Below are positions 20,347 to 60,860 of a stretch of DNA of 64,000 bases, piece after piece. Made by a program: the position numbers and the translations under genes. Source of the DNA: Candidatus Woesearchaeota archaeon (GTDB taxonomy: Archaea > Nanobdellota > Nanobdellia > Woesearchaeales > UBA10216); contig JACPTG010000001.1 of assembly GCA_016192905.1 (NCBI GenBank), forward strand, positions 227,005-291,004, in the 5' to 3' direction. Within the stretch, counting starts at the first letter, position 1; each line of letters starts with the position of its first letter. Below the pieces are notes generated by a model. The model was not told where the DNA came from, did no database searches, and saw only the letters and a program-made list of their open reading frames with translations.

Positions 20347-20472
20347 CCCCGCGTAGCTCAACGGCAGAGCGATCGGCTGTAGATATGCACTGCTGACTTT
20401 GCCTTTAAGGCTCCTGATGATGCTGTGCCAGCCGTTCCCGATAGGCTGCCGGTTCAAATCCGGCCGCGGGGA
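20347..20472 (+). tRNA. tRNA-Tyr (GTA) with canonical 37/38 intron (20383-20436, 54 nt)
   Basis: Acceptor CCCCGCG/CGCGGGG (C1-G72), ATCGG..CCGAT anticodon stem, CGGCTG/CAGCCG central helix. Confidence 0.9.
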
Positions 20473-55398: not shown

Positions 55399-55442
55399 CA
55401 TGTTTTGCTTGCAGCAAAAAGCTGTAAACAAAATGTTTACAG
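55399..55442 (+). other. 44-nt BHB-type intron in 16S helix 23 / 690 loop
   Basis: Central helix GTAA/TTAC, bulges AAC and AGT, inner helix ATGTTTTG/CAAAATGT; removal restores AGCAGTAAAATGCTATAATCC. Confidence 0.8.
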
Positions 55443-55539
55443 TGCTATAATCCCTTGCAGACCACCTGTGGCGAAGGCGTCTTGCCAGAACAGATTCGAC
55501 GGTGAGGAACGAAAGCTAGGGGAGCAATCCGGATTAGAT

Positions 55540-55681
55540 ACGAGAAATCCTGTGGATTTCTGGAGCCCGTCAGGGTACAATTACGCGTAGCGTAATTTGT
55601 ATTAGCTTCGGCAAAGATTGTTCAGTTCTACCATTGCCTTAGTGAAGCCAGAAGGTATAATCAGGGTTTGCCTCGCTAACT
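55540..55681 (+). other. 142-nt BHB-type intron in 16S 790 loop (793/794)
   Basis: Central TTAG/CTAA, bulges ATA and CTA, inner CGAG/CTCG; removal restores GGATTAGATACCCGAGTAGTCC. Confidence 0.88.
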
Positions 55682-56262: not shown

Positions 56263-56722
<460 letters not shown>

Positions 56723-56810
56723 GCCCGTCAAACCACTCGAGCAGGGTTTAGATGAGAACCGCCTTATTGGGCTGTGCGAATCTAAGCTCAGTGAGATGGG
56801 TTAAGTCGTC

Positions 56811-57006: not shown

Positions 57007-57107
57007 GGGCTCGTAGCTCAGCCTGGTAGAGCATCGCCCTTGCAAGGGCAAGCAACGGCTTGCCCAAGGAGAGGCGGGGGCCTCGGGTTCAAATCCCGAC
57101 GAGTCCA
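57007..57107 (+). tRNA. tRNA-Ala (TGC) in 16S-23S spacer, 27-nt intron at 37/38 (57045-57071)
   Basis: Acceptor GGGCTCG/CGAGTCC+A, stem TCGCC/GGCGG, intron hairpin GGGCAAGC-AACG-GCTTGCCC. Confidence 0.93.
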
Positions 57108-59192
57108 TTCAGTTAGTCTTTAATTAGCAATTCAATAATCATTCATGCTCAAAAATCGTTTGAGAGCCGTTCCTTACCCGAAAAGGTTTGGGCCGAGCTG
57201 GTTGAGTGATCGCGAGGTCACGTTTATGATGCCGTGCGTATCCTAACTACGCTGTTAGATGGAGGACTTGGCTCAAGCGCTGACGAAGGGCGTGGCAAGC
57301 AGCGTTATGCTCCGGCGAGGCGCATGCAGCCGTAGAACCGGAGATTCCTGAATCAGACATCTGAGCGCAAGCTGATCCGTGAGGATGGGAAACGCAGGGA
57401 ATTGAAACATCTTAGTACCTGCAGGAGAAGAAATCAATTGAGATGCTGTAAGTAGCAGCGAGCGAAAACAGCGAAGGCCAAACCGAATCCTGCCCTGAAA
57501 GGGGCCGGAGATGTGGTGTTGTAGGACCGCTCATTAAGGGCCCTCCCTGGGCAACCGGAATTTCCCTGGAAAGGGAAGCCACAGAGGGTGACAGCCCCGT
57601 ACGGGCAAACTTAGGTGGGCCTGAGCGTGTTCCTGAGTACCGTTTATCGGATATTAAACGGGAAGCCGGGAGTCATCAACTTCCAAGCCTAAATACGTCT
57701 TGAGACCGATAGCGAATAGTACCGCGAGGGAACGTTGAAAAGAACCCTTAACGGGGAGTGAAAAGAGCCTGAAATCTAACAGCTATAGTCGGTCATGGCT
57801 CTAAGGAGTTATGACATGCGTTTCGAATAACGTGCCAGGGAGTATATCTGAGTGGCAAGGCTAATCCACTTCGTGGAGGAGCCGCAGCGAAAGCGACAAG
57901 CCCGCAGGCAACGAGGGGCGCGGAGTGAAAGCTCCGGGAGTTACTTGGATATGACCCGAAACCGGGCGATCTATTCCAGGGCTAGGTGAAGCGTGGGTAA
58001 AACCTCGTGGAGGCCTTAAGGGGTTCTGGGTGCAACCGTTCCTGTGACCTTGGATTAGGGGTGAAAAGCCCATCGAGCCCGGTGATAGCTGGTTCCTGCC
58101 GAAATAGGCCGCAGTCTAGCCTCAGGTCAGACAGCATGTGCGGTAGAGGGACGGATTAGGGGTTGAGGCACCGAAAGGTGTCGGCCCTTTGTCCAACTCC
58201 GAATGTGCATGCGTCATAGCCTGGGAGACGGGGAGTCGGGGTAAGCTTGACTTCCGAGAGGGGAACAACCCAGACTGCAGGTAAGGCCCCTAAGTGCTGG
58301 CTAAGTGCTAATGGGGTAAGGGCGTCTGCAGCCGAAGACAGCGAGGAGGTTGGCTCAGAAGCAGCCATCCTTTAAAAAGTGCGTAACAGCTTACTCGTCG
58401 AGGTTGCAGGCACCTAAAATGGACGGGGCTAAGTCAGCCGCCGATACTGCAGACCCTGAAAAGGTGTGATAGGCAAGGCGTTCTGCTGGGCTGGAAGCAA
58501 GTCCACGAGGACTTGTGGACCCGGCAGAAATGAAAATCCTGGCGGTAGTAGGATCTGAGAAGCTTGAGAATAGCTTCCACCGAAAGGGCAAGGGTTCCTT
58601 TACAATGTTCGTCAGTAAAGGGTTAGCCGGTCCTAACCGACGCCCCAATTGGGCTCAGGGAAAGGGATAACGGTTAATATTCCGTTGCTGCCTGGGTATG
58701 TGCGGCGACGCAAGTCTGGCTTGCGACGCCTCCGGCTAGGCTGACACTGTACAAGTGTTAACCGGAACAAGTCAGTGGAGTATCGTAATGGTGAGAAACT
58801 GATTAAATCCGGGAATAGTGCGAAAGCATTCAGCCAATGCCAGGGGCCCGTGAAAAGCGAGCCGGAAAAAATCCCAGGCAACCGTACCAAGAACCAGCAC
58901 TGGTGCCCCTAGGTGAAAAGCCTAAGGTGTGTAGGTGTAATCTGGCTAAGGGAATTCGGCAAACTAGCCCCGTGACTTCGGTCTAAGGGGTCCCTGTTCC
59001 CGTCTCCGCATGGAGGCGTTTTCAGGGCGCAGTGACAAGATGGGCCCGACTGTTTAACAAAAACTTAACTTACCGCAACGCTGCAAAGCTGTGTATGGTA
59101 GGTGACGTCTGCCCAGTGCCGGTACTTCAAACTCCCTTCCAAGGGAGCTAAGAGCCGGTAAACGGCGGGAGTAACTATAACTCTCTTAAGGT

Positions 59193-59456
59193 GAACAGTT
59201 GCCTTAACAAAATCGGGCTGTATGCTGGAACATCTCTTTGAGCTTATGATAGGCTACTGCTATGGCGACATGGCAGCGACCCCTTAAAATTCATAAGCGA
59301 GAGACAATCAGCAGGAAAGGCTGGACTTTGTCCAGAATCCCCAGAGACTGTACGCCTGACTCCTGAAAAGGAGAAGATACAGTCCGACCCCAGCAGCGAT
59401 GTTGGGAAGCCAGCAGAAATGACTGGCTCGCCTCGAATGAGGTTGTAACAGACGTG
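59193..59456 (+). other. 264-nt ORF-less group I intron in 23S at L1931
   Basis: Exon CTTAAGGT^AGCGAAAT; P1 exon TTAAGGT pairs with IGS GCCTTAA with U.G; R CAGAGACTGTACG and S AAGATACAGTCC forming P7; terminal G. Confidence 0.92.
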
Positions 59457-60050
59457 AGCGAAATACCTTGTCGTTTGATTGACGACGTGCATGAATGACG
59501 TAACGAGGTCCATGCTGTCCCTAGCCAGAGTCCTCCGAACACCCTCTCCTGGTGCAAAGGCCAGGGATCTCCAGTGGGAAGCGAAGACCCCGTGAAACTT
59601 TACTGTAGCTTGTTGCTGCAACGCGGGTTCTGCTGTGTAGTGTAGGTGGGAGTCGCTAAAGCTGGGCTGCAAGGTTCAGTGTAGACGCCGATGAAACACC
59701 ACTCTGTGGGACTTGCGCTGCTAACTTCGCAAGAAGGACAACTATAAGCAGACAGTTTGGCTGGGGTGGCACTCTGCTGAAAAGGTATCAGCAGAGCCCT
59801 AAGGTTGGCTCAGGCGGGTTGGAAATCCGCCGTGGAGTGCAAAGGCATAAGCCAGCCTGACTGGATTTGCAACAAGAACAAATCCAGAGGCGAAAGCCGG
59901 GCTTAGCGAACCCCTGTGTCCCCCTTGATTGGGGCCAGGGATGACCGAAAAGTTACTCCGGGGATAACAGAGTTGTCTCGCCCGAGAGCTCCTATCGACG
60001 GCGAGGCTTGCTACATCGATGTCGGCTCTTCCTATCCTAGCCGTGCAGAA

Positions 60051-60071
60051 AAGCCTCATGGGCTACTGTAG
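60051..60071 (+). other. 21-nt BHB-type intron in 23S near ~E. coli 2531
   Basis: Outer AGCCG/CGGCT, central GCAG/CTGT, inner AGCC/GGCT; removal restores GTGCAGAAGCGGCTAAGGG. Confidence 0.75.
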
Positions 60072-60860
60072 GCGGCTAAGGGTGGGGGTGTTCACCCATT
60101 AAAAGGGATCGCGAGCTGGGTTCACAACGTTGTGAGACAGTTGGTTTGATATCTACTGGAGATGCGAGGATGTCTGAGGGAAAGGGACGTCTAGTACGAG
60201 AGGAACGATGTCCCGGCGCCTCTGGTCAACCGGTTGTCCAACAGGGCAGGCCGGGCAGCTACGCGCTAGAGGATAAGTACTGAAAGCATCTAAGTACGAA
60301 ACCTCCCTCGAAAATAGACATCTCAGACACCCATAGAACATGGGTTTGATAGAGCAGGGGTGTAAGTACCAAGGTAACGAGGTATTCAGCCCGCTGCCAC
60401 TAATCGTCACAATTGGATACGCACGGCATTTTCATTTCTTTTGAGTTTTAATTGGTAGGCGCAGCTATGTCCTGCTGAAGGTCTTAAAAATATTCAGGCT
60501 CACAGAAACCCAGTTCTCCCCCTGTGAAATTTTTATAGAAACTTTCAGAGGGGCCATTTGATGTTGCTGATATTGCGCTTGGCCTTGGTGCCATTGCTGT
60601 TTACGGCGCAGCGACGCATGCCTACAACAAGGTTTTTGGCCGGGATGGAATAAGGAAAAAGCTGCTTGACTCTGAGCTACGCGGAGGCTATGATTTTATC
60701 CAAGATTTGGCTTTGAAGGCAACCGCGCAGTTCTCAGGGGGGAGCACATCTGTTTTGGCATATGCCCTTCATGCGCAGGGCTGAAAGGGCCGTATTATCC
60801 GGGATTCCAAAGCAGCGCTGAGCCACAAAGGATAAATATATGCACATACATACAGGCCAT

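Follow-up and report, generated by a model that had tools for sequence, protein, structure and literature searches.

The gene for archaeal 23S rRNA considered here contains 21 additional nucleotides in the loop of helix 91 (H91), directly preceding the A-loop helix 92, and this raises the question of whether they are kept in the mature rRNA or removed from its precursor. The comparison described below points, with high probability, to a very short BHB intron, which would be cut by the endonuclease EndA and joined by the ligase RtcB.

Position and folding of the 21-nt insert

The window, the whole stretch of 64,000 nucleotides that was analysed, belongs to a 624-kb contig of a 1.43-Mb genome that is 95% complete. 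An earlier note on this DNA had proposed a 21-nt BHB intron at 60051-60071 of the 23S rRNA gene, adjoining the A-loop helix, and the placement proved exact to the base by sequence match and by alignment to E. coli 23S rRNA. The junction separates E. coli positions 2534 and 2535 in standard numbering. Annotation of the E. coli record that served as reference runs one base early: its 2535 corresponds to the standard 2534, as verified via U2552 of the A-loop. At 60039-60082, exons and bracketed insert read AGCCGTGCAGAA-[AAGCCTCATGGGCTACTGTAG]-GCGGCTAAGGG. Excision of the 21 nucleotides yields GTGCAGAAGCGGCTAAGGG, which is the form read directly in intron-less relatives and bears out the claim that removal restores the archaeal consensus. 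The placement of the 21-nt gap is unambiguous, as any other placement gives a different product. The features of the site are as follows (a caret marks a predicted cut):

57235-60423, + strand: host gene, archaeal 23S rRNA (Rfam RF02540, LSU_rRNA_archaea, 2573.6 bits)
60039-60043, + strand: AGCCG, 5' side of the outer helix, which is formed by exon bases and belongs to the H91 stem; pairs with 60073-60077
60045-60048, + strand: exon GCAG, 5' side of the 4-bp central helix; pairs with 60066-60069
60049-60051, + strand: AA^A, a 3-nt bulge on the 5' side of the fold, with a cut predicted after 60050; its position is common to 26 inserts
60051-60071, + strand: candidate 21-nt BHB intron, AAGCCTCATGGGCTACTGTAG, in the H91 loop (E. 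coli 2534/2535); unambiguously placed; no insert in 120 of the order's 140 genomes with a readable site
60052-60064, + strand: hairpin AGCCT-CAT-GGGCT on the inner side, with a single unpaired A (60065) after it, from the fold
60066-60069, + strand: intron CTGT, 3' side of the central helix; 4/4 pairing at the same offset in 25 of 26 inserts
60070-60072, + strand: AG^G, bulge on the 3' side, with a cut predicted after 60071; from the fold and the comparison of 26 inserts
60073-60077, + strand: CGGCT, 3' side of the outer helix of exon bases; from the fold and the same comparison

The MFE fold (z = -4.1, a figure that includes the ordinary H91 stem) contains all elements that had been proposed from the sequence, namely the outer helix AGCCG/CGGCT, the central helix GCAG/CTGT, the inner hairpin and one extra A. 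Measured against the definition of the BHB motif (PMC7714728), the 4-bp central helix GCAG/CUGU is located between the 3-nt bulges AAA and AGG. The archaeal splicing endonuclease cuts between nucleotides 2 and 3 of the bulges (PMC2738675); both junctions fall at exactly these positions, and removal restores the conserved exon. The fold departs from the canonical motif by the extra unpaired A60065 on the inner side and by a possible wobble pair between U60044 and G60072.

A mechanical scan of the rRNA operon recovered eight BHB-like folds of comparable quality, against one to six in each of six Markov shuffles. Such folds are common by chance in this operon, which argues against the BHB reading, and the fold was rejected as stand-alone evidence since it is hardly rarer than expected (8 vs 1-6). 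The insert appears to be more than a chance fold because the structure coincides with an insertion defined by alignment and because homologous inserts keep its geometry. The strength of the case thus comes from comparison, while the structure drawn in the earlier note would be a good guess by itself. A catalytic core of a group I or group II intron was looked for at the site; the insert comprises only 21 nucleotides and gave no Rfam intron match even at a permissive threshold.

Inserts at the same junction in other archaea

A search of the genome contig collection for the 21-nt insert plus its adjoining bases matched no genome but the source, and the conserved junction was used as the search target instead. 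Within the order, to which genomes deposited as Candidatus Woesearchaeota belong, 140 genomes have a readable site. According to a tally made from the site listing, 120 of these are free of an insert, with GTGCAGAA followed directly by GC and nothing between GTGCANMA and GC, and 20, including the source genome, carry an insert at exactly the same junction. Both states are found within nine families and even within two genera, g72 (G093 without, G094 with) and g93 (G132 without, G131 with), and the same-family genomes G002, G004, G006 and G012 lack the insert. The matches of G044 and G049 that start at the junction were discarded, as they are contig starts with an intron-less H91. In the close relative G003 the contig ends two nucleotides 5' of the junction, reading AT and then GCGGCTAAGGG, which is a hint of an intron and shows nothing.

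A scan for interrupted H91, using one genome per species for 84,980 species, resulted in 25 loci, 24 of which were usable, with inserts of 22 to 54 nucleotides. The species scan and the set from the order overlap with identical sequences (e.g., PEXD01000004.1 is G059 and NYYS01000059.1 is G043). Carriers in the scan are mostly DPANN archaea; the others are, by the titles of the metagenome-assembled records and with taxonomy as deposited, two Thermoproteota, a Sulfolobales, a Diapherotrites and a Methanocellales bin. Altogether, 26 distinct inserts of 21 to 54 nucleotides share the same two junction bases, and their hairpins are mostly unrelated in sequence and varied in length. The present insert is the shortest of the 26, in keeping with the earlier suggestion of a very small rRNA intron. 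L037 shows the same design in cleaner form, with an insert of 22 nucleotides.

The geometry is kept throughout this set. The insert bases ending two nucleotides short of the 3' junction form pairs with exon GCAG at all four positions in 25 of the 26 inserts (103 of 104 pairs formed), some of the inserts being related by descent and therefore not all independent. At other offsets the central helix is essentially lost, and shuffled inserts formed on average 0.48 and at most 3 full central helices, compared with the 25 observed. The outer H91 stem is complete (5/5 bp) in all 26 inserts, and both Thermoproteota inserts end in CUGC rather than CUGU with pairing still full.

These data bear on the possibility that the 21 nucleotides are kept in the mature rRNA as a lengthened H91 hairpin. 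The insert lies in a hairpin loop and folds as an extension of the stem, and its length differs among relatives, as in expansion segments. However, most relatives are free of an insert at a site that is otherwise near-invariant, so that the 21 nucleotides are not a helix extension common to relatives, the finding that would have spoken against the earlier reading. Retention would also require neither fixed 3-nt bulges nor a fixed distance between pairing and junction, yet both hold in 26 mostly unrelated inserts. A retained expansion is therefore considered very unlikely. The BHB intron reading is instead strengthened, since carriers have inserts of differing sequence and length at the same two bases with a geometry of the endonuclease type.

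An assembly error or duplication artefact is the least probable explanation of all. One apparent insert (L049/G239) is indeed such a case, consisting of 23S rRNA sequence duplicated at a contig end, and was discarded. The 21-nt insert, however, does not duplicate adjacent 23S sequence, is far from the ends of the 624-kb contig and matches the pattern in other independent assemblies.

Splicing machinery and the interrupted rtcB gene

The genome encodes both an endonuclease and a ligase. EndA (183 amino acids) contains both Pfam domains and scores above the TIGR00324 cut-off, and its best single-unit solved relative is the catalytic subunit of Nanoarchaeum equitans (3iey_A); a gene for the RtcB ligase is also present. 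Only one gene with the EndA domain PF01974 was found in the genome, and both a homotetramer and an undetected partner are possible. Homotetrameric splicing endonucleases favour canonical motifs (PMC6379350), and this preference, together with the single EndA-domain gene, argues against the BHB reading, given the imperfect motif described above.

The insertion, its boundaries and its folding potential are established, as are the geometry kept across the 26 inserts and the two genes; from these we infer cleavage and ligation. In the proposed mechanism, exon GCAG would pair with intron CUGU in the pre-23S rRNA between two 3-nt bulges, and the resulting BHB would be closed on the outside by the H91 stem and on the inside by the 5-bp hairpin. 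EndA would cleave each bulge after its second nucleotide (60050 and 60071, respectively), and RtcB would seal the exons, thereby restoring the standard AGAA loop of H91.

Alternatively, EndA might remove the 21 nucleotides without rejoining of the exons, thereby leaving a fragmented 23S rRNA. The cutting motif would be the same as that of an intron, and DNA cannot distinguish ligation from its absence; the main point against this explanation is the presence of RtcB, and the ends would fall in the conserved domain-V helix beside the A-loop, where fragmentation of the rRNA would be unexpected. We regard this outcome as even less likely than retention, and splicing with ligation of the exons remains the preferred reading.

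The rtcB gene of the source genome (L104; G000:C2:112722-114070) is itself interrupted twice, by 29 nucleotides near L104:1470-1498 and by 30 nucleotides near L104:1571-1600. With both interruptions removed, PDAHEGYGFPIG and ISPGGIGYDVNCGVR are restored, and the protein regains the motifs HEGYGFPIGG and GGIGYDVNCG. One or both of these introns occur in ten same-family genomes (among the relatives, L126-L131 and L133-L135), and in each of the 13 rtcB introns the central helix forms with all 4 bp at the endonuclease offset. Most of them shift the reading frame (lengths of 29 to 32 nucleotides), and the 30-nt one of the source genome adds in-frame stops; a stop-free, full-length rtcB is found in G003, G004 and G012 of the same family and in most other families sampled. 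The interruptions appear to be BHB-type introns. Since RtcB joins BHB exons and rtcB is itself interrupted in this way, the ligase seems to require splicing in order to be made, and RtcB thus appears to depend on its own reaction for its mRNA. No report of BHB introns in rtcB was found in the literature searched. In two further genomes of the family (G008:C13 and G015:C15), the rtcB matches break near profile position 50 within open frames of 913 and 1001 amino acids, which suggests inteins in a gene that has BHB-type introns in relatives.

Known intron systems and other insertions in the operon

A class of short, hairpin-forming BHB introns of less than 50 nucleotides is well documented in archaeal 16S rRNA (Jay and Inskeep 2015, PMC4496867). 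The present insert resembles them in its rRNA host, a hairpin without an open reading frame, a BHB placed at conserved exon sequence and a patchy distribution; unlike those introns, which are found in 16S rRNA and mainly in Thermoproteales, it is located in H91 of 23S rRNA in a Woesearchaeota-type genome and comprises only 21 nucleotides. Archaeal tRNA introns of 11 to 175 nucleotides and cbf5 introns of 16 to 44 bp (PMC2738675) have an EndA-type motif and a similar size, whereas the host here is an rRNA. Archaeal group I introns are known at positions 1923, 1931, 2500 and 2593 of the LSU (PMC6125680); they share the host gene and also occur in Woesearchaeota, but they are ribozymes of a few hundred nucleotides at other LSU positions.

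The literature searched, which covered few subscription papers, yielded no description of an intron at LSU 2534; position 2534 is possibly an uncatalogued intron locus, this negative being weak evidence of novelty. We lean, by a narrow margin, towards regarding E. coli position 2534 as an uncatalogued archaeal hot spot of very small rRNA introns, occupied in several phyla and repeatedly gained or lost in Woesearchaeota-type genomes, with the 21-nt example among the smallest rRNA introns known. The 21-nt case would illustrate how short rRNA introns can be, at a recurrent splice site next to the ribosomal A-site; the lineages concerned are known largely through metagenomes. The natural variants, over 20 in one exon context, offer a ready series for testing the requirements of the archaeal splicing endonuclease, and probes, primers and rRNA models that cross H91 will misread the site in about one of every seven genomes in the order.

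Further insertions are present in the same operon. A 264-nt insertion in the 23S rRNA gene (59193-59456, near LSU 1931) matches the group I intron model RF00028 (E = 3.1e-9, below the gathering score), and BHB and group I introns thus seem to share one rRNA gene. In the 16S rRNA gene, a 428-nt insertion at 56296-56723, between CACACACCG and CCCGTC (provisional ends), gives weak matches to the group II models RF00029 (E = 0.058) and RF01998 (E = 0.5) and has a domain-V-like hairpin; it may be a small, ORF-less group II intron. A 44-nt 16S insertion at 55399-55442, absent in six relatives, has a BHB-type central helix GTAA/TTAC with bulges AA^C and AG^T and is, by this fold, a predicted second short BHB-type intron of the operon. 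Another 16S insertion of about 140 nucleotides (55528-55669, approximate boundaries) is found close to the GATTAGATAC motif, in the region of locus 781, a known site of archaeal introns, and the relative L094 has a different insertion at this site. Finally, in the window as a whole, two tRNA matches, at 57007-57107 (101 nucleotides, between the 16S and 23S genes) and at 20347-20472 (126 nucleotides), probably contain introns, as both exceed the 71-nt model.
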